Origin: a virus
Direction: 5' to 3' (one strand)
DNA: 52,283 nt
IMG/VR virus record: IMGVR_UViG_3300020171_000039
Coordinates: 1-52,283 of that record
In this document: piece by piece, positions 2,657 to 49,363 of the stretch
Layout: every line of letters starts with the position of its first letter
Position numbering within the stretch: the first letter of the stretch is position 1
Program-made: the position numbers and the translations under genes
The notes under the pieces: model-generated
Database searches by the model: none
What the model saw: the letters and a program-made list of their open reading frames with translations, nothing else
What the model was told of the DNA's origin: nothing

Positions 2657-3963
2657 GCTGCCTCCTGTTGTAAGACTTCACGAAAATGCATCCTCGGAAA
2701 GTCGGTACGGATCGTGAACAACTTGTACCTCTTCCCTTTCCTTACCTTGTCGACCCAGATCCGTGCAGTCCCTTCTTCGTACTCCTCAGGACACTGGTTG
2801 TAGGTGATGACGCCGTCGGCCTTGTGGGTCTTGCGCCACGAGTCTCCGATCATGTCTTGGGTGATGACCTGGTTGCGATTGACCGTGGTGAACCGCTGAG
2901 GCTGCGACGCGGTCCAGACCAGGCACTTGAAGTCATCAGCGATCTGCTTCAGGCCTGAGTAAACCGCTCCACCACCGGCGTAGTCGTTCTCTTCCTTGTG
3001 TAAGATCTCGTCGGCGTAGTCGATGATCACCAGACTAGGTCGGATCCCTTCAACGGCTCGGAGCTTCATCAAGTAAGCCCGGATCGTTTCCAGCGACGCA
3101 GCCTTGGACGAATAGTACTTGACTTGAAGACGGAAGCCTCGACTCCGAGCTACATACTCTGTGAATTCGTCAGACCCTGACACGATCTGATCGATCGGGA
3201 CACCTGACAGTCTCGCACAGTACCTGAAGAAGACTTCGTCCTCGTCGAGATCGCCGAGGGTGATGTGGACGACTTCGTACCCGGACTTGACCGAAACAGC
3301 TCCCATGTTCGTCAGCCATACCGACTTGCCTCCGCCCGGAGGTCCGATGATTGTCCACAGCTGACCCCGGGTCGGGCCTCCGTAGGTCAACCTGTCCAAG
3401 GTCGGCATGTACGACCGGATCCGGTGTTCCCTGCTCTGTCCCCGGTCTGCGATCTGGCGGACACGTTCAAGAGCGGTGTACACGTTCGTTCCGAGGTCGG
3501 AGGTGTCTGTGCCGGACAGAACCGCGTCTTGCATGATCTTGTAGATCTCGTCGGCGTCGCCGTCCTTCTTCAGGATGTCGACCGACTTCAGCAGCCCTTC
3601 CTTGACCGACTGGGTCTGTCCGAACTTGCGAACAGTCTCCTTGAGATACTTCGGATCGGGAATGTCGAGGCTGCACAAGTCAACAGTCTGCAACAGGATC
3701 GTGGATTGTTCAGTCGCTGGCATCCTGATCTTGACAAGGTAATCTTCGAGAGCGTTGCGCAGCGTGACTTGATCCGGTGCCTCGTAGTGCTCGTCGTAGT
3801 ACTTGAGAAGGACTCGGGTGATCGTTGACAACCCCGAGGACTCGAAGTACCCGGGCTTGATGATGTCTCTGTACGATCTCAGGAACGACGGATCCTGGAT
3901 CAGCAAGGCTACGATCCGGACCTGGAACTGGATGTCGTACGGGTATTTACCTTGTTCAGCCAC
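2653..3963 (-). CDS. DnaB-like replicative DNA helicase
   Basis: This is a RecA-fold hexameric helicase expected to unwind the phage fork. The N-terminal 150 residues are helical, as in DnaB N-terminal and linker regions. Walker A is GPPGGGKS at 207-214, Walker B is LVIIDYAD at 311-318, and a DnaB motif H4-like WTASQPQR lies at 350-357. The length (436 residues) fits DnaB and T4 gp41 relatives. The start is GTG 3963, sharing its G with the TAG stop of the upstream SF2 helicase. The close helicase and primase genes imply a primosome. Confidence 0.85.
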   Translation of the reverse strand: MAEQGKYPYDIQFQVRIVALLIQDPSFLRSYRDIIKPGYFESSGLSTITRVLLKYYDEHYEAPDQVTLRNALEDYLVKIRMPATEQSTILLQTVDLCSLDIPDPKYLKETVRKFGQTQSVKEGLLKSVDILKKDGDADEIYKIMQDAVLSGTDTSDLGTNVYTALERVRQIADRGQSREHRIRSYMPTLDRLTYGGPTRGQLWTIIGPPGGGKSVWLTNMGAVSVKSGYEVVHITLGDLDEDEVFFRYCARLSGVPIDQIVSGSDEFTEYVARSRGFRLQVKYYSSKAASLETIRAYLMKLRAVEGIRPSLVIIDYADEILHKEENDYAGGGAVYSGLKQIADDFKCLVWTASQPQRFTTVNRNQVITQDMIGDSWRKTHKADGVITYNQCPEEYEEGTARIWVDKVRKGKRYKLFTIRTDFPRMHFREVLQQEAA

Positions 3964-5396
3964 TACAACTCCACTCCTGAGGCCGTGATCGACCGGACTT
4001 GAAGACCTAAGTCCTTGTACAACTGGATCCTCTTCTCGCTATGGCGTTGCAAGTAGAAGTGCGACTCGTGTATGAAGTCGAAGACCGGGAACGTGCCAGG
4101 CGACTCAGATCCTTCCTCTTTACGCATCGCTCGTCCGATCCTCTGCACGACCCTGCGCGCCTTCTTCAGTCCACCACCCATGATCACAGCTCCGAAGTCG
4201 GGGATGTCAACACCTTCGTCCAGCACCGAAGTAGCTACCAGAGCAAGGCCATCGGTGAGGTTGATATACTCTCTGAGAGTTTCCAGATCCCAGGTACCGT
4301 CAACCTTCGAGTCTCCTACGTACCTCAGGATTCGACCACCTCCTGAGTACGCTGCTGCTTGGGTACACAAAGGTTGCATCAACGGGAGTAGCTGGTGCGC
4401 GTGGGTCGTGACACGGTTAACGAAGGTCAACGACTTCGTTCCTTCTTGACTGAGCTGACCTGCGATCTTGGCGATGATGTCGTTTCCTTCTTCGCTCTCA
4501 ACGATCCCGAGCTTGTAGACCTTGTCCCAGTTGCTCGACTTGATACGATCTCCTCGAATCCTAGCGATGTAGATGATCGGCTCAGGTAAGATCCCTCGTT
4601 GGATCAACACGCGCAACGGGACATAGATCAGGACAGGTCCGGTCAGACCGATCAACACCAAGTCTCGGATGCTGTACTCGCCGGGTTCATCGAAGACCGT
4701 GGCAGACAGTCCGAACCTGTACCTCGCCTTGGACTGGGACATGACCGTGGTCCACATTTTGGCTGGGAGGTGGTGGACTTCGTCAACGATCAAGACCTCG
4801 GAGTCTAGCAGGTCTACGACTCGTTCGTCGCCTTTCTTGATCCCGCTGTACAAGGACTGGATCGTGGCTGAGACAACATCAGGTCCTAGATCTTTCTCGT
4901 CGCCGTGATAGATCCCGACCTCGGGAACACCTCGCTTCAGGAACCTCTCTCTACCTTGAGTCGTGATCAGAGCTGACCCAGACAAGAACAAGACCCGGAG
5001 ACCGTGCTGTTCTGTGTACCATCTCGTCGCTGCTGCGGCGATCTCGGTCTTGCCTGACCCAGTCGGAAGTTCAACGAGGCCTCGTCCTTGCAAGAGCATC
5101 TTCTTGGTCGCTGCGATCTGGTAGTCGTATGGAACGATCCCTTTGAACAACGGGACCAAGTCTTCGGTCGAGACCTCGGCTCGGATCAGGTCGTCGGGAT
5201 ACTCGACCTCGACATCGTCCAATAGCTCCGAGACCAGCGGGATCAACCCTGACAAGATCTGTCCTTCATCTGTCGACATCAGCTGATCGGCTCCGGAAGC
5301 ATCCTCGGGGTCGAGGTTTAGCTTAGCTCTGAGATCGTTGAGCTCCCAGTACTCACCATCGATCTCTGATACCCGGTCTCCGTATTCGATCAGCAC
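3963..5396 (-). CDS. SF2 DNA helicase (UvsW / Rad25-like)
   Basis: A superfamily 2 ATP-dependent helicase. Motif I is PTGSGKT at 111-117, motif II is DEVH at 205-208, motif III includes SAT at 231-233, and motif VI is QRIGRAMR near 411. The first 80 residues form a variable acidic N-terminal region. T4 UvsW and related phage enzymes act in branch migration, R-loop removal and recombination-dependent replication; I infer the same here. The start is GTG 5396 with GGAG ten bases upstream, five bases after the preceding stop. Confidence 0.85.
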   Translation of the reverse strand: MLIEYGDRVSEIDGEYWELNDLRAKLNLDPEDASGADQLMSTDEGQILSGLIPLVSELLDDVEVEYPDDLIRAEVSTEDLVPLFKGIVPYDYQIAATKKMLLQGRGLVELPTGSGKTEIAAAATRWYTEQHGLRVLFLSGSALITTQGRERFLKRGVPEVGIYHGDEKDLGPDVVSATIQSLYSGIKKGDERVVDLLDSEVLIVDEVHHLPAKMWTTVMSQSKARYRFGLSATVFDEPGEYSIRDLVLIGLTGPVLIYVPLRVLIQRGILPEPIIYIARIRGDRIKSSNWDKVYKLGIVESEEGNDIIAKIAGQLSQEGTKSLTFVNRVTTHAHQLLPLMQPLCTQAAAYSGGGRILRYVGDSKVDGTWDLETLREYINLTDGLALVATSVLDEGVDIPDFGAVIMGGGLKKARRVVQRIGRAMRKEEGSESPGTFPVFDFIHESHFYLQRHSEKRIQLYKDLGLQVRSITASGVEL

Positions 5397-5592: not shown

Positions 5593-5705
5593 ACGAGATC
5601 GTGATCTGGCCGCATGAATTCAAAGGCGATAGCATGTGCCCTCAGTTTGTGAAGCGCCGCCTCACAAATCCGCCTCGCCTCGTCGCGCTCTGCCTGGGTC
5701 TTCAT
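5439..5705 (-). CDS. Small helical protein, 5' part (frameshifted)
   Basis: ATG 5705 overlaps the previous stop as ATGA. The first 53 residues (from MKTQAERDEARR) form a charged helical protein ending DAYEELEG. After codon 53 this frame becomes Arg/Trp-rich, whereas the -1 frame continues with EAEKARRALEMAC and stops at 5401. The switch is at a run of four G at 5547-5550. A sequencing or assembly indel, a real mutation or programmed slippage could explain it. No known domain is seen. Confidence 0.5.
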   Translation of the reverse strand: MKTQAERDEARRICEAALHKLRAHAIAFEFMRPDHDLVCAVEDVADAYEELEGRQRRPEGHWRWRAVRWSPWASRNSIPERKRRSGTT

Positions 5706-6055
5706 GGGGCCTCCAGTTGGGTGACTGCGTCCAGTGCATCAAGTGTCCGTTGCGTCTTCAGGCAGAGGAAGATCATCTGCAAAGCATCTTGCGGTACCCT
5801 CAGTTCACGGATGAAGTTCCCTGCGTTTCGTGCCGCATCCCGCAGCCTCTCCACCTCCCCCCTCGCCTCGTCCAGCTCGGAGCGGGGGATGAACTCGCAC
5901 AGGACAGCCCCGTGCGCATCTGCCATAGCGCTTGGGTCTGTGTCCACCGCCAGGAAAACCATGTCGGCCCCCATGGGTACCAGCTTTCCATTTACGTGGA
6001 CATACTCCACCCGCCCATCTGGCCACTTCCGCATCACCGCCCAAAGACTAGCCAT
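5702..6055 (-). CDS. Hypothetical protein (117 aa)
   Basis: I chose ATG 6055 over a longer in-frame start at 6223 because GGGAGG lies directly upstream and the longer version would translate the inverted-repeat element as Arg/Ser-rich sequence. The product starts MASLWAVMRKWPDGR, has a beta-rich first half and a charged helix around RSELDEARGEVERLRDAARN that may form a coiled coil. It is the first clear gene after the structured leader. Function is unknown. Confidence 0.65.
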   Translation of the reverse strand: MASLWAVMRKWPDGRVEYVHVNGKLVPMGADMVFLAVDTDPSAMADAHGAVLCEFIPRSELDEARGEVERLRDAARNAGNFIRELRVPQDALQMIFLCLKTQRTLDALDAVTQLEAP

Positions 6056-6086
6056 GGTTGCCTCCCAGCCTCCTGGATATGTACAC

Positions 6087-6197
6087 AAGAGAGGTCCTCT
6101 GGAACGTCTACTGGTGCGAAGAACTCGCTTTGGACTGGTCGAAAGGATCCGACGGGTTCGACCAGTCCTCCGTCGGTGACACCAGAGCACCTCTCTT
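6087..6197. repeat. Interleaved inverted-repeat element, candidate structured RNA
   Basis: Three sets of pairing arms interlock. The outer arms at 6087-6102 and 6182-6197 match over 15 of 16 positions. The inner arms at 6132-6143 (GGACTGGTCGAA) and 6157-6168 match over 12 of 12. A 7-base pairing between 6149-6155 (CCGACGG) and 6170-6176 (CCGTCGG) links the inner loop to sequence outside the inner stem, a pseudoknot or mutually exclusive fold. A small hairpin (GCGA/TCGC) lies at 6116-6128. It could be a 5' leader switch, a noncoding RNA or a DNA site bound by dimeric proteins. No known class fits. Confidence 0.6.
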
Positions 6198-6335
6198 ATG
6201 AATGAAGACGAACAACAATCCAATCTCCCCCTTCCTCAATAAGGCCGTAGGATCTACGGTGACAGCCTGTCGCCTGGTGAGCTCTGGTCTTCTTCGGAAG
6301 ACGAAACTAACCATTGGGCAGGAACTAGACTTCAT
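6108..6335 (-). CDS. Doubtful ORF (75 aa) across the structured region
   Basis: ATG 6335 has GAGGA six bases upstream and lies 22 bases after the preceding stop, as a real gene might. However, the ribosome site and start are buried in a perfect 9-bp hairpin, the frame runs through the outer and inner inverted repeats, and the product (starts MKSSSCPMVSFVFRRR) resembles nothing. Either it is a small gene whose translation is controlled by the hairpin, or it is chance. I lean towards chance. Confidence 0.3.
   Translation of the reverse strand: MKSSSCPMVSFVFRRRPELTRRQAVTVDPTALLRKGEIGLLFVFIHKRGALVSPTEDWSNPSDPFDQSKASSSHQ
6245..6302. other. Two hairpins, one closed by UUCG on the plus strand
   Basis: CCGTAG (6245-6250) pairs with CTACGG (6254-6259) around a 3-base loop. 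GTCTTC (6287-6292) pairs with GAAGAC (6297-6302) around TTCG, which on the plus strand is the very stable C(UUCG)G tetraloop. On the minus strand the loop is CGAA, which is unremarkable. The loop therefore hints at a plus-strand transcript, opposite to all genes. No terminator T-run follows. Confidence 0.4.
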
Positions 6336-6358
6336 GAGGATTCCTCATGAATAAGTTC
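6322..6358. terminator. Hairpin at the end of the structural block
   Basis: A perfect 9-bp stem, TTCATGAGG (6331-6339) and CCTCATGAA (6343-6351) with a 3-base loop, is extended by GAACT (6322-6326) pairing with AGTTC (6354-6358) across a small internal loop. On the minus strand it begins at the stop codon of the PC4-like gene. There is no U-tract, so it is not a classic intrinsic terminator. It could be a processing or stability element, or could mask the ribosome site of the doubtful ORF at 6335. Confidence 0.35.
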
Positions 6359-6615
6359 TAGGGATCAGACGGATCAGGGATCTGTCCGATCTTGACCAGG
6401 TACTCTCCAGCTTGAGAGAGTAACTCTACGAGCAGAGGCAAGTCATGAGGCTTGAGGTTCGTGCCTCGTCGAAACTCTCCGCCTTGTCGGATCCTTCGGT
6501 AGATCACGGTGTCGTAGTAGACCCTGGAGTCGATCTCGTTGCGATAGACAGCTACGAGGATCTGGCCCTTGCCGTAGGATCGTTCTCTGATGGAGCTACT
6601 CTTGGAGCGGTTCAA
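6358..6615 (-). CDS. PC4-like single-stranded DNA-binding protein
   Basis: This 85-residue protein has the layout of phage PC4/p15-type proteins: about 18 polar, basic residues, a strand run (ILVAVYRNEIDSRVYYDTVIYR at 19-40), a turn with GTN at 51-53, then a helix starting DLPLLVELLSQAGEYL at 58-73. Such proteins bind single-stranded DNA and can affect replication or late transcription. The start is TTG 6615, with GGAGG six bases upstream inside the portal gene, whose end it overlaps by 20 bases. The family call rests on pattern and is moderate. Confidence 0.55.
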   Translation of the reverse strand: MNRSKSSSIRERSYGKGQILVAVYRNEIDSRVYYDTVIYRRIRQGGEFRRGTNLKPHDLPLLVELLSQAGEYLVKIGQIPDPSDP

Positions 6616-8422
6616 CCGGATCCTCCGGACGAATATGGATCTTGGCTTCGGTCAACCTTCTGTCGTACTCGCCTCGGACCAGTCTTGTGGGTAACGGCTC
6701 TTTCTGTCCTGCAGCCATCACCTTCGACCTCCGGAATACCTCGTTCAACAACTTCCCGATCGGAGCAGAGGTCTCCGAAGCTAGTTGGTTCTTGACAGCT
6801 TTCTTGAACGTCGATGTCACGTCCTCGGTCAGATCCTCGGGCTTGGCTCGGATAATCTTCATGATCGAAGCATAATCAGGACCCGGTCCAGGTTCTTCGG
6901 GTACCTCGTCTTCTGGTTCCTCCGGCTCCGGACCAGGCTGCTCCGGCTCTGCAAACACCGGCGCAGGGGATTCTGAGCCTCCGAGGTCTGGGCCTTCTCC
7001 GGGCACGTCTTGGATCGGTCCGAATCTCTCGATCTCGTCGTCAGAGAATCCGAGTAGCGACTTGAGGAGATAGCCTCCCCACTCCTGCTGTCTCAGACCC
7101 AGAGCTGTCCCGACGTCCAACGACCGCTCAATCACATCCAACGTAGTCTGCATCACCTCAAGTCGTTGGAGCAGCTCGATAGGAGACGGTGGGACCATGC
7201 AGACCTTGAACGTTCCTTTGCTCACGGACAAGTCAAGCAAAGCCAGGTGGATCTGGAGGATCCTCGAGATCCCTGCCATGACGTCACGTTGTAGCCTCGA
7301 AGCCTGACGACCGAACTGTACCGATCTCCACGAGAATGCTCTGCCACCTTCCTCTGCTGACTCCCCGAACCCGAACCACTCCTTCTTCGCTCGCATCGAA
7401 GCGTAGAGCTGGTCGTAGAACAGGTCCATGTCGTAGGCTGCGTAGATGTTCGGCATCCCCGGCGTCGTCTCGATTCGTGACTGCGACCCGTCCCATGTCG
7501 GCCAGATCAGATCTTCGGTCAGGCCCAGCGGATTCCACATCACATCGAACTCGCCCGAGTCGGGATTCTTGTAGACCGTGCGTCGCATCGCTGCTTTCCA
7601 ACGACCGAGCTTCTGGAACATCTCCATCTCGGTCGAACGGGTCCCGACGTCGACCATGATGTTTCGACGATCCAGAGTGTTCGATAGTCTGTAGACCATC
7701 AACATGTCCGAAGCGGTTCGGACCTGTTTCAGCGGACGTTGGGTGTTCTTCAGGATCGAGGTTCCGTAGAGTTCGCGAGTGTCTCGTTCCCGGTCTCGAG
7801 TCGTGACTGTTGTACGTCTGAGTCTGATGTGAACAAAGTCCCAGGGCTTGTACAACTCTTCGAGGTCGTCGACGTCCCAGCTCCGTCGCAATCCTGTGTC
7901 GTCGTAGAAGTGACCCAGGAGTGTCCCGTCTTCGGTCTCGACACGCTCGTAGTTGCGGGGATGCTTCCACTCGACCGCTGTGACTCCAACTCCGGGCTCG
8001 CCATGGACCCGAGCTGGGAGGTCTCCTAGGGTCGCCGAGTCTCGGATGATCGCGTAGATCTCGTCGTTGATCTCGAGGTTCTCGAGACACGTGTTGAGGA
8101 CGGACTGGATCCCTTCGTCTGGAGCCTCGACCCAGATCGACAACCCCGAGTCAGGATCTTCCTGAGTCGCTTCTTCTGCGTAGGCGTCTAACACGCCGGA
8201 AACCTCGGGCCAGTTGTCGAGTTCTTCGTAGACCTCGTACAACTCACGACGTTTGTCTGCCTGGTCCGCCATGAATCCGCGGTACCTCTCGACTCTGGAC
8301 TTGATCTGCTCGACGTCGTAATCTCCGAGCTCCTTGTCCTGAGGAGTCCTGATAGCTCTTGAGGCGCTCGATGGAGCGAATAGTCGAGCTAATCGAGCTC
8401 TGAAAGTGTTGTTCGAGAGCAT
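6596..8422 (-). CDS. Portal protein (T4 gp20-like)
   Basis: The predicted portal forms the dodecameric ring at the packaging vertex. The 608 residues include T4 gp20-like stretches: helical EQIKSRVERYRGF near 38, EELDNWPEVSGVLDAYAEEA near 66, PWDFVHIRLRR near 194, and LYGTSILKNTQRPLKQVR with YRLSNTLDRRNIMVDVG in the 220-265 region. A Pro/Glu-rich linker near 485-520 precedes a charged C-terminal tail, a likely flexible extension. A GGAGG ribosome site precedes ATG 8422. It is far from the protease and capsid genes, an unusual position. Confidence 0.85.
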   Translation of the reverse strand: MLSNNTFRARLARLFAPSSASRAIRTPQDKELGDYDVEQIKSRVERYRGFMADQADKRRELYEVYEELDNWPEVSGVLDAYAEEATQEDPDSGLSIWVEAPDEGIQSVLNTCLENLEINDEIYAIIRDSATLGDLPARVHGEPGVGVTAVEWKHPRNYERVETEDGTLLGHFYDDTGLRRSWDVDDLEELYKPWDFVHIRLRRTTVTTRDRERDTRELYGTSILKNTQRPLKQVRTASDMLMVYRLSNTLDRRNIMVDVGTRSTEMEMFQKLGRWKAAMRRTVYKNPDSGEFDVMWNPLGLTEDLIWPTWDGSQSRIETTPGMPNIYAAYDMDLFYDQLYASMRAKKEWFGFGESAEEGGRAFSWRSVQFGRQASRLQRDVMAGISRILQIHLALLDLSVSKGTFKVCMVPPSPIELLQRLEVMQTTLDVIERSLDVGTALGLRQQEWGGYLLKSLLGFSDDEIERFGPIQDVPGEGPDLGGSESPAPVFAEPEQPGPEPEEPEDEVPEEPGPGPDYASIMKIIRAKPEDLTEDVTSTFKKAVKNQLASETSAPIGKLLNEVFRRSKVMAAGQKEPLPTRLVRGEYDRRLTEAKIHIRPEDPVEPLQE

Positions 8423-40173: not shown

Positions 40174-40878
40174 TCAGACCCTCATCGGTACGCCGAGGTC
40201 TCCGGTACGTGACCTCAGTTCATTAGTCAGCTCATTGATCTCGGAGATCGACTCGGACAGCAAAGCTTCGCCATCCATCCGGAACTCTCGCTCCGAGCCT
40301 TGGACGCTGTTGAACTTGGATCGCATCCGGCCCAGAGGATACTTGGCTTGTGACAACGAACACCTTAAGAACCAATCCTCGAAGTCTGCAGGGACCTGGG
40401 CGATGGTGCGATCGATAACGTAAGTGTAGGCAACGGTGTGGGACGTGACCGGGATCGGAGTGATGTACAACTTCGCAGACTCGAGATCGAACTCCCAAGC
40501 GAACTCAGCAGACAACACTCTCCGGGCCAGGTTCAGGTGTGCCATGTCCGATGCGAACGTCCCTACATCGATCGGTTGCTGAACCGTTGACCACGGGTTG
40601 AACACATCGTACTGAGCCAACGAAGGTCGGATCGTAGGAGCAGGGACGCAGTTGACCAACCCTTTGCCGTAGTCGGTCAGTACATAGACCTGCTGACCCG
40701 AGTTGAGTCCGAGAGACGCTGTCAGCCGTCTGGGATGGTATCGATTGAACAGTCTCAGGGCTTGGGCGATAGACTCGTCTAGCTGACCTGTCGTGAGCTC
40801 GACACGGACACCTTCGGTTGCATCCTGCCCGAGCATCCTTTGGATATGGAGTTTGACAGATGCTTCCGACAGTGCCAC
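40174..40878 (-). CDS. Neck / head-completion protein (gp13-like candidate)
   Basis: The 234-residue protein follows the capsid gene. Its N-terminal region (EGVRVELTTGQLDESIAQALRLFNRYHPRRL) is typical of phage neck/adaptor proteins that begin with a helical bundle and an RY-x-P motif; the centre is beta-rich and the C-terminus helical (FEDWFLRCSLSQAKYPLGRM). T4 gp13 and gp14 close the filled head. The start is GTG 40878 with AAGGAG five bases upstream. Confidence 0.6.
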   Translation of the reverse strand: MALSEASVKLHIQRMLGQDATEGVRVELTTGQLDESIAQALRLFNRYHPRRLTASLGLNSGQQVYVLTDYGKGLVNCVPAPTIRPSLAQYDVFNPWSTVQQPIDVGTFASDMAHLNLARRVLSAEFAWEFDLESAKLYITPIPVTSHTVAYTYVIDRTIAQVPADFEDWFLRCSLSQAKYPLGRMRSKFNSVQGSEREFRMDGEALLSESISEINELTNELRSRTGDLGVPMRV

Positions 40879-40916
40879 TTAAGCTCCTTCAAGTCAGAGT
40901 CCTGCGATCCGTCAGC

Positions 40917-40948
40917 GGAGACCCCGGAAGTCGCCTCCCAGGGTCTCC
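40917..40948 (-). terminator. Strong hairpin after the capsid gene
   Basis: On the minus strand GGAGACCC pairs with GGGTCTCC, then a U.G pair, then GGGAG pairs with CUUCC, closing on a GCGA tetraloop (GNRA class). The stem of about 14 pairs begins 8 bases after the capsid stop. No U-tract follows, so it may be a 3' stabiliser or RNase site that raises capsid mRNA level, or a partial terminator. Confidence 0.5.
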
Positions 40949-40956
40949 TGGATCGT

Positions 40957-42381
40957 CTAGGCCGTGATCGTCCCGGTGCAGTAGAACCCGCCGTCCACAG
41001 GCATCCGCCCGTACCGGCTCCAGGTCCCCTTGCGGACGAGGAAGTCGGTCAGGGTGATCGTGGGGGTCTGGGTGAACATCTGGTACGGAGCGTAGATGTA
41101 ACCCGTGTCCCACATGTTGTCACCCTTGTGGCCCATGAGGTACGTGTCGGTGTTGATGTAGCTGTCCTTGTAGACCGTCCACTGGTTGTTCAGCACGCCG
41201 ATCTTGTGGACGCCGCGACCCTTGATGGCTCCGCCGGTCCGCTTGAACCCGGGCAGAGTCTCGATGACGTTGCAGACCCCGACACCGGCCACGATCCACT
41301 CGGCCTCGGCGCGCTGGGTCGTGGAGTAGATCCGGTTCTGGGCCTGGACCAGGCTGTCGAGGAAGGAGAGCTTGTGCTCGGTGTACGAGACACCAGCACC
41401 CACGGTCCGGGACCACGCAGGCTGGACGTTGGTCGAGATCCGGAACAGATCGTTGATGATCTTGTGGTCGATCTCGTACTTCATCTCGCTGACCTGGGCG
41501 GCAACGAGCTCGACCTCGGCATCGAGACCGTGGACGATCTTGTAGTCGGTCTGGACATCCAGCGACCACTTGCTCACGATCCGGTCGGCCTGGGCCGTCA
41601 CCGGACGCGAGGTCAGGACCATGTCGGTCTCGGGCTGGAGGTACGTGCCCTCGTTGTCGTAGTCGTACGAGGCATCGATGGTCGCTGCGGCAGTGATGTT
41701 CGCGGAGAACGTCACGTCGTATGCGCCAGTGGAGTAGTTGATGGTGTTGTTCCCGCCTGCATTGACGTCACCGATCAACGCGCCTGCGCCATCGTCGGTG
41801 ACCAACAGACCGTCAGAGGTCACGATCTGGAGACGGCCTGCCAGAGCCGGGACCCAGGCCAGGTTGCCGGTGTACTGGGCAACCGCACCGGTGCCGACAT
41901 CGAGCTGCTCCGAGTCGATCTCCTTCGAGGTGAACGACGTCGAAGGATTCTCGATGATGTCACGACCAGCAACCGCTGTACCTTTGGTCACGCCGTACAG
42001 GAACTTCAGGAAGAAGACCAGCGACGTCGGACCCTGCATCGGCTGGGTCGAGACGAGCTCATGTGCGATCAGGTTCGGGAACACTGCCCGGACGATCGGG
42101 AACGCCCACCGGTCAAAGGACCCGACGTACTGGAGCCGCGTGGTCTCGTCCAGGGCGTCGTAGTACTCTTGCTGGTTGTGCATCATCAGAGCGGTCATGA
42201 GCCGGACTTTCTCGTCCTTGATGCCTTCGAGCATCTCGCCCATGGTGTACCGCACCGTGGTCTTGGATCCGCGGCGCTCGTACGCCTTCTCGAACAGGAT
42301 CCGGTCCTTGGCCTTGGCGAGCCCTTCCATCAGCCGGGTCGCGTCCTCCATCCCTTTGTTCACGCCTTCACGAATGATCAT
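40957..42381 (-). CDS. Major capsid protein (T4 gp23-like)
   Basis: The 474-residue product resembles gp23-type HK97-fold capsid proteins: PIVRAVFPNLIAHELVSTQP and MQGPTSLVFFLKFLYG near 94-130, a central insertion (INYSTGAYDVTF) near 216, the long helical ELVAAQVSEMKYEIDHKIIN, and a C-terminal YIYAPYQMFTQ with RYGRMPVDGGFY. The N-terminal 50 residues are helical and charged, as in propeptides removed by the prohead protease. GAGGAGG precedes ATG 42381. The prohead protease gene is immediately upstream. Confidence 0.85.
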   Translation of the reverse strand: MIIREGVNKGMEDATRLMEGLAKAKDRILFEKAYERRGSKTTVRYTMGEMLEGIKDEKVRLMTALMMHNQQEYYDALDETTRLQYVGSFDRWAFPIVRAVFPNLIAHELVSTQPMQGPTSLVFFLKFLYGVTKGTAVAGRDIIENPSTSFTSKEIDSEQLDVGTGAVAQYTGNLAWVPALAGRLQIVTSDGLLVTDDGAGALIGDVNAGGNNTINYSTGAYDVTFSANITAAATIDASYDYDNEGTYLQPETDMVLTSRPVTAQADRIVSKWSLDVQTDYKIVHGLDAEVELVAAQVSEMKYEIDHKIINDLFRISTNVQPAWSRTVGAGVSYTEHKLSFLDSLVQAQNRIYSTTQRAEAEWIVAGVGVCNVIETLPGFKRTGGAIKGRGVHKIGVLNNQWTVYKDSYINTDTYLMGHKGDNMWDTGYIYAPYQMFTQTPTITLTDFLVRKGTWSRYGRMPVDGGFYCTGTITA

Positions 42382-47433: not shown

Positions 47434-48614
47434 TCGAGGTTACTTGTTGCCAGTGCCATCCCGTTCGTCGGGAAGGTGTCGCTCTGGAACGCTCCGGCTG
47501 CGTCCAGACCGTACAGCGTGACGCTATGACAGCCTGTTCCAGGAACACCAGCGCCCTTGGCAGGATCGTCCTCGACACTTCCGGAGATCACGGTGAAGGT
47601 GTCAGCAACTACCAGGTACGGCATCGGAGTCGAAGTATTCCTCACCGTCTCCCAGGTAGCTCCGACCGTAGGATTGTATCCCCACACGTGGAACGCGACC
47701 TTCCCAGGCACGAGGTTCTTCGCGATGCTATAGCCCCGAGGCTCTGCTGATACCATCAGACTTCCGCCGTTGATAGACCTGACATTCTGGAACAGTCCCG
47801 AGGTCGTGTCCATCGCTGCGATCACAGCCTTGACCAGTTCAGCATCGTCTTGGTCAACGATGCTATCATTAACCCGGTGACTCGACGCCTTGAATCCTTG
47901 TCGAAGCAGGGTCTGGATCACGAACGTCCCTTGTGCTACTGCCCCGTTGGTGTACGAGATCCTGTAGTATCGTGCGCTAGGAGTCCACGAATACACCTTA
48001 CCCGAAGCTCCGCCTGTCAAGGTGTACCAGTCCGAATCGATAACGGTCGTCTCGTCATGACTCCACTCTACCACGAGACCGTCAACCGCTGAATCCTGAT
48101 CTGAGACGACCCCGAGGACAACAATTCCATAGGCCAAGGTGTCAGCCCACTCTCCGACGAACGACTCACCTCCTCCTAGAAGCGTGGTCGTAGAGTTCTT
48201 CGCTACGACCACGCTCACTGCCCCGATCTCTGCAGCGCTGTTGTCGTAGTCGAGGTACTTGTCATCTACGGTACCTCGGACGCTGTAACGACGAGTAGCA
48301 GCGTCGTACGTGATCTCGCTGAAGGGGTTGTCGTCGAGTCCTCTTGTGCGGATCGTATAAGCATCATCCGCCTCAGATCCGGCATACGTCGCCAGGACCA
48401 GCACCGATCCAGTTGCTGACACGATCCGATCCACGACTCTACGAGTCTCGTTGTAGAACAGAGCTCCGACGACACTCGAAGGGAATGTCGTAGCAGCGTC
48501 GGTGACCTGCTCTGCTATCGCTGCGGTGACTGTACCTGCTTCAAGTTCAGTCCCGATGTAGGCTGCGAGAGCCTCTTCGTATGATGCGAATGATTCGTCG
48601 TATGCACGCTTCAT
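47382..48614 (-). CDS. Beta-rich virion-type protein, 5' part (frameshifted)
   Basis: ATG 48614 has AGGAGG four bases upstream; the longer start at 48635 is less likely. The 410 residues in this frame are mostly beta-strands (VVEWSHDETTVIDSDWYTL, GKVYSWTPSARYYRISYTNG, GKVAFHVWGYNPTVGATWE). The normal fold continues to about NGMALATSNL and then changes to Cys/Ser/Glu-rich sequence that looks non-coding, while the -1 frame continues naturally. A 9-base tandem repeat (47419-47436) marks the junction. Likely a decoration or fibre-type protein. Confidence 0.6.
   Translation of the reverse strand: MKRAYDESFASYEEALAAYIGTELEAGTVTAAIAEQVTDAATTFPSSVVGALFYNETRRVVDRIVSATGSVLVLATYAGSEADDAYTIRTRGLDDNPFSEITYDAATRRYSVRGTVDDKYLDYDNSAAEIGAVSVVVAKNSTTTLLGGGESFVGEWADTLAYGIVVLGVVSDQDSAVDGLVVEWSHDETTVIDSDWYTLTGGASGKVYSWTPSARYYRISYTNGAVAQGTFVIQTLLRQGFKASSHRVNDSIVDQDDAELVKAVIAAMDTTSGLFQNVRSINGGSLMVSAEPRGYSIAKNLVPGKVAFHVWGYNPTVGATWETVRNTSTPMPYLVVADTFTVISGSVEDDPAKGAGVPGTGCHSVTLYGLDAAGAFQSDTFPTNGMALATSNLECSECSESSVALSGLEG
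47419..47436. repeat. 9-base tandem repeat at a frame switch
   Basis: On the minus strand CGAGTGTTC occurs twice in a row, followed by CGAGTC. The repeat encodes RVFRVF in the downstream frame and coincides with the switch between the two ORFs. Duplication of 9 bases alone does not shift frame, so a further one-base change or slippage is needed. Confidence 0.6.
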
Positions 48615-48680
48615 GAGACCTCCTGATTGTACCACTACGGTTCAATAAGAAGGCACTTGTGTACAGGAGGATCAGGTCTG

Positions 48681-48836: not shown

Positions 48837-48859
48837 CCTTGCCTCGATTCTGAGAGGTT

Positions 48860-49363
48860 CTAGCCCGAGGCAAGGGCCTTCTTAGCCTCGCGTGGAAACT
48901 CGCGGTACACCTTGTCTGAGGCTGTCAACGGACCATAGTACCTGGCATCCTCGGGGTTGACGTACTCGACAACACCACCGAGTCTGTAGACAACCGGAAC
49001 GAACCTGACCCCTTTCCAGTCCCTGATCTTGGTGTAGATCTCGTACTCCCTGGTCTGGTTCTTCAGAGTGATCTCGACGAAGGGAGGAACGATGCCTCGT
49101 TCTCTGCGTCCTTCACGTTCGGTGAATCCGACCCAGAGCGTTACATGACCCGGACCTGGAACAGGATCCTGTTTCGGTTCAACCGGGGCTGAGATCTCGA
49201 GAGGAACAGAGACCAATTCAGGTCCTTGATACTCGTAGCCACAAGGGCACTCAGTTCTGGGATAGCCTCCTCCATGATCCAAGTTACCGCAAGCAGGGCA
49301 ACGCTTCGCTGTGTCGTCTCGCATCGCTAGTCGGTAGAACTCGTGACGGCTGCTCAGTCCCAT
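48860..49363 (-). CDS. Zinc-ribbon protein of unknown function (167 aa)
   Basis: An N-terminal zinc ribbon (C22, C25, C39, C41: CPACGN then CPCGYEY) is followed by a Pro-rich linker and a beta-rich domain (GHVTLWVGFTEREG, VVYRLGGVVEYVNP). The start ATG overlaps the previous gene by 10 bases. It stands in the accessory block upstream of the structural genes. No family is recognised. Confidence 0.6.
   Translation of the reverse strand: MGLSSRHEFYRLAMRDDTAKRCPACGNLDHGGGYPRTECPCGYEYQGPELVSVPLEISAPVEPKQDPVPGPGHVTLWVGFTEREGRRERGIVPPFVEITLKNQTREYEIYTKIRDWKGVRFVPVVYRLGGVVEYVNPEDARYYGPLTASDKVYREFPREAKKALASG

Follow-up and report, generated by a model that had tools for sequence, protein, structure and literature searches.

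A nested structured element between the virion and replication genes of a divergent T4-like phage as a putative leader RNA of orf117

What role, if any, should be assigned to an intricate set of inverted repeats that separates the virion genes of a phage from its replication genes? The repeats occur in IMG/VR virus record IMGVR_UViG_3300020171_000039, whose 52,283 bases were analyzed over their full length and are called the window below. The source is a divergent T4-like myovirus. All ORFs that match a protein family lie on the - strand, where the gene order is tail sheath, baseplate, capsid protein, head protease, T4-like portal (PF07230), and orf85, followed by a gap, two small ORFs, a UvsW-like helicase, a DnaB-like helicase, and primase (Table 1). 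A preliminary description had placed the element at the boundary between the virion and replication blocks, and it does fall between the last virion-block gene and the small ORF preceding the UvsW-like helicase, DnaB, and primase. That description read the + strand and left the choice of strand unsettled. Because the family-matched genes are encoded on the - strand, the RNA sense of the element is the - strand, and this orientation is used throughout.

Architecture of the element

The outer arms (6087-6102 and 6182-6197) pair at 15 of 16 positions, as originally reported, and can be extended to 19 nt (6084-6102 and 6182-6200), with Watson-Crick pairs at 17 of 19 positions (89%). One additional G-U pair is possible on the - strand only. 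Together with its inner extension, the outer stem forms a near-continuous duplex of ~22 bp. The inner arms pair at 12 of 12 positions around a loop of 13 nt, and the 7-base pairing between this loop and the adjacent flank is likewise present (on the + strand, CCGACGG with CCGTCGG), flanked by one-base linkers at 6156 and 6169. When the - strand is read, the partner of the loop lies 5' of the inner hairpin. The element ends 9 nt 5' of the tandem Shine-Dalgarno of orf117, which in turn ends 5 nt 5' of the ATG. A further 8-nt complement upstream (6281-6288 with 6181-6188) was judged likely to be due to chance.

Table 1. Positions of the element, its component helices, and neighboring features in the window
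Feature	Positions	Strand	Remarks
T4-like portal protein (PF07230)	6596..8422	-	
orf85	6358..6615	-	Last conserved gene upstream of the element; kept in syntenic relatives
21-bp perfect palindrome TTCATGAGGATTCCTCATGAA	6331..6351	.	6 nt past the orf85 stop codon
Non-coding intercistronic leader with the element, ~300 nt	6056..6357	-	Folding z -4.7
Outer stem, 5' arm in RNA sense, CAUAAGAGAGGUGCUCUGG	6182..6200	-	17/19 Watson-Crick with 6084-6102
7-nt alternative helix, 5' strand, CCGACGG in RNA sense	6170..6176	-	One base 5' of the inner hairpin
Inner hairpin, 5' arm in RNA sense, GGACUGGUCGAA	6157..6168	-	
7-nt alternative helix, 3' strand, CCGUCGG	6149..6155	-	Inside the inner hairpin loop
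Inner hairpin, 3' arm, UUCGACCAGUCC	6132..6143	-	
Small third hairpin GCGA-GUUCU-UCGC	6116..6128	-	Between inner and outer arms; completes a three-way junction
Outer stem, 3' arm, CCAGAGGACCUCUCUUGUG	6084..6102	-	CCUCUC alternatively pairs with Shine-Dalgarno GGGAGG
Tandem Shine-Dalgarno of orf117	6061..6074	-	AGGAGG 6069-6074 and GGGAGG 6061-6066
orf117	5702..6055	-	Small orphan ORF, next downstream; codon use is coding-like
UvsW-like helicase	3963..5396	-	First recognizable replication-block gene

The nested fold, consisting of the outer stem, the 12-bp inner hairpin, and the small third hairpin, lies in non-coding DNA and is far beyond chance. Sixty dinucleotide shuffles of the window yielded 10 hairpins of at least 12 bp, and the best outer 16-mer pair surrounding any of these matched at 11 of 16 positions, versus 15 of 16 in the real sequence. 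Folding z-scores are -5.6 for the - strand and -5.1 for the + strand. The genome-wide ranking rests on a folding-energy scan in 120-nt windows, among 2610 of which the element has the lowest energy (tied) on the - strand; on the + strand it ranks second. The 7-nt pairing is the weakest of the three and only suggestive, because a complement of seven loop nucleotides is expected in the flanks with P ~0.011 once the hairpin is given.

Several ready explanations were rejected. A coding role does not fit, because the ORF that runs over the element (6108-6335) is below background in codon usage, scoring -0.08 per codon; orf117, for which neither a relative nor a function was found, scores +0.08, the portal gene +0.10, and DnaB +0.15. 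The initial impression that no known RNA family has this arrangement was borne out by an Rfam covariance search, in which no family matched at gathering or relaxed thresholds and the best sub-threshold matches were chance-like; a known RNA family or ribozyme was therefore dismissed. No copies of the outer or inner arm sequences were found elsewhere in the window, nor was the exact inner-stem pattern found in IMG/VR, nor were host or prophage copies found in GTDB genomes.

Predicted gating of orf117 and the order of folding

All folds were computed without proteins or ribosomes. In a transcript carrying the whole element, the outer stem is predicted to form and to leave the orf117 Shine-Dalgarno partly accessible, with a mean unpaired probability for GGGAGG of ~0.44. 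When the 5' arm is missing from the transcript, the 3' arm of the outer stem is predicted to pair with GGGAGG and close the site; deleting or scrambling the outer 5' arm lowers the corresponding value to ~0.11-0.12, and GGGAGG stays as open in just 0.5% of the scrambles. From these predicted open and closed states we infer that the element would insulate and gate the translation of orf117, and probably also protect or mark the mRNA boundary.

Pairing to the Shine-Dalgarno is not rare by itself, since shuffled leaders close GGGAGG equally well in 8.7% of cases; in these models, what stands out is solely the change brought about by the outer arm. Our preferred reading, tentative at a probability of about 0.4, is that the element is a cis-acting structured leader RNA on the - strand, located between the virion and replication blocks, that insulates and gates orf117.

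The preliminary description had also argued that the 7-bp and 12-bp stems cannot both form in full and that the element therefore looks like two competing folds. The steric argument is upheld; in the geometry of an H-type pseudoknot, a one-base crossing loop cannot span 12 bp. Prefix folding of the - strand agrees with the proposed competition, giving the 7-bp helix when the RNA ends at ~6149-6141 and the 12-bp stem from ~6133 on, while a functional switch and a kept pseudoknot stand as candidates only. By the same geometry, the two stems might coexist if the inner stem opened by three or four of its outer pairs; ViennaRNA puts this loss at ~8-11 kcal/mol, against ~12 kcal/mol that the 7-bp duplex would gain before any pseudoknot penalty. 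The 7-bp helix may thus form first during synthesis and be displaced by the 12-bp stem, or it may persist as a partial pseudoknot. In either case, it could be a folding-order aid. When 1.46 Mb of phage DNA was searched for the same topology of a hairpin with a loop-flank helix, no other stem of at least 12 bp with such a helix was found, and the cases present were mostly short or A+T-rich.

A more ambitious version of the leader RNA would have this transient or pseudoknotted helix set the folding order of the outer stem that opens the Shine-Dalgarno, making the element a virion-to-replication switch that possibly senses a ligand or a phage protein. We consider this the least probable of all the readings weighed here.

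Syntenic relatives and alternative roles for the gap

Scans with single proteins found no relatives of this phage, and those described here were found via conserved-motif alignments of the capsid protein, helicase, and orf85. Identity to the window is 48% for portal, 41% for UvsW, and 42% for DnaB in L191, L192, and L193, and 29-37% for portal in L195, L111, L112, L113, and L198; L197 matches in orf85 and helicase, and its portal was not seen. The order of portal, orf85, and UvsW is kept, mostly with DnaB and primase as well. The slot after orf85 differs in every relative. It holds a hairpin followed by UAUUUUU in L111 or by CUUUU in L195. In L112 it is a structured gap of 262 nt (z -4.35), which contains a hairpin of 14 bp as well as TTGACA-18-TATAAA. 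TTGACA-18-TATAAC is present in both L197 and L198, and TTGACG...TGTGGTATAGA in L191; all promoter readings were made by eye from sequence. In L113, the genes overlap. The element of the window is in none of these syntenic relatives. A covariance model of the element matched only the window itself among the relatives' loci and 13 whole relative records; a model derived from one sequence has limited power to detect distant copies.

Other features were encountered in these genomes. The sole GTGGTACAAT in the window (48626-48635, - strand) is intergenic, lies just 5' of a Shine-Dalgarno, and resembles the GTGGTATAA motif that L112, L191, L197, and L198 carry at the orf85 boundary; it is therefore perhaps the promoter of this lineage. 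In relative G001 (L109, 2496-2537), a perfect 14-bp hairpin sits between the portal stop codon and a GGAGG site, adjoining both. The portal gene of L111 (2747-5557) is one 936-aa frame with an insert of ~330 aa that starts CITGDTKISLLDG, ends VFIHNS, and is HNH-like in the middle; its appearance is that of an intein within a portal protein of the T4 type.

The punctuation that relatives carry in this slot, namely the hairpins of L111, L195, and L112, favors a reading that ranks close behind the leader RNA, in which the element is mainly a terminator-like, RNase III-type, or 3'-stabilizing structure where the virion-block transcript ends or is processed, and in which the fine topology is irrelevant. 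The near-continuous duplex also counts toward this possibility, as ~22 bp is long enough for RNase III. However, outer arms 79 nt apart are superfluous for a plain terminator, and no T run accompanies the stems of the window on either side. In the usual sense, the element is not an intrinsic (rho-independent) terminator, because a T run directly after the GC-rich hairpin is missing (the - strand continues past 6084 as TACATATCC) and a terminator scan was negative there. The element shares with the intrinsic terminators of L111 and L195 its genomic slot and a GC-rich hairpin after orf85, but differs in having no U tract, in being nested, and in its length of ~117 nt.

An action at the level of DNA, as a binding or looping site or as part of a replication origin near the helicase and primase genes, seems unlikely. 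Strong folding on both strands, the replication genes nearby, the perfect 21-bp palindrome close by, and a palindrome upstream of the helicase gene in L191 would all suit such a role. That last palindrome (TATGTCCGCGGACATA, ~5040-5062) is perfect, lies near a GTGGTATAG motif, and is operator-like. On the other hand, the skew does not switch near 6 kb, the gap yielded neither iterons nor repeated boxes, and the one asymmetric pair favors RNA of the gene strand.

Somewhat more doubtful still is the proposal that the element arose by chance or is a decaying palindromic insertion without function, as part of a replacement of the gene that relatives have at this place. A conserved gene of 240-280 aa, absent from the window, comes next in several relatives. 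The element and its two following ORFs are missing from all relatives found, which mostly have this gene instead. Against this proposal, the arms are near-perfect, the nesting beats all 60 shuffles, a good Shine-Dalgarno lies just past the end of the fold, and a target-site duplication was not seen.

Comparison with T4 leader structures

Regulation by leader structures is well represented in T4, where they hide or expose the ribosome sites of genes e, soc, 49, and I-TevI, where an intervening helix brings a distant ribosome site close in genes 25 and 38, and where gene 32 is regulated via a pseudoknot (PMC3014915). The putative leader RNA described here is like the e, soc, 49, and I-TevI leaders in placing mRNA structure beside a Shine-Dalgarno and in a predicted dependence of translation on the presence of the 5' arm in the transcript. 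In T4, however, the full structure closes the site and a short late transcript opens it, whereas the reverse is predicted for the element. Also in contrast to T4, no internal promoter for a transcript without the 5' arm was recognized in the gap of the window by a search limited to consensus promoters. The T4/T2 gene 32 leader (PMC3014915) offers a second parallel, in that an H-type pseudoknot may precede a gene of a T4-like phage. Unlike that leader, the element does not precede an SSB gene, lacks A+U-rich repeats, and has much longer stems and an enclosing outer stem, and its pseudoknot is only putative. By analogy, the element would work, if at all, like T4 leader structures, and its membership in any of these groups is putative.

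Strong hairpins near other genes of the same phage, at 48181-48215 and at 40901 after the capsid gene, were counted toward the leader reading. The former is a perfect 13-bp hairpin directly 5' of AGGAGGAGG; GCGAAGAACTC occurs both in its loop and in the element's small third hairpin. A very stable nested hairpin, tied for the lowest folding energy on the - strand, separates the capsid gene from the gene that follows it (40876-40960). In a 10-bp hairpin elsewhere (48837-48875), the 3' arm lies directly against the start codon (ATG) of a small ORF rich in Cys (MKTCPYCRAYY...), and the AAGG ribosome site would therefore be sequestered, as in leaders of the T4 gene e type.

We regard the element as an orphan variant of phage leader RNA structure, a familiar kind, with no new class demonstrated. 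At present, it is a well-defined and testable orphan rather than a new class. If the leader reading is true, a very divergent T4-like lineage, whose closest relative found has a portal protein only 48% identical to that of the window, would gain a control point based on leader RNA. It would also mean that RNA punctuation at the boundary between virion and replication genes is rebuilt differently from phage to phage.
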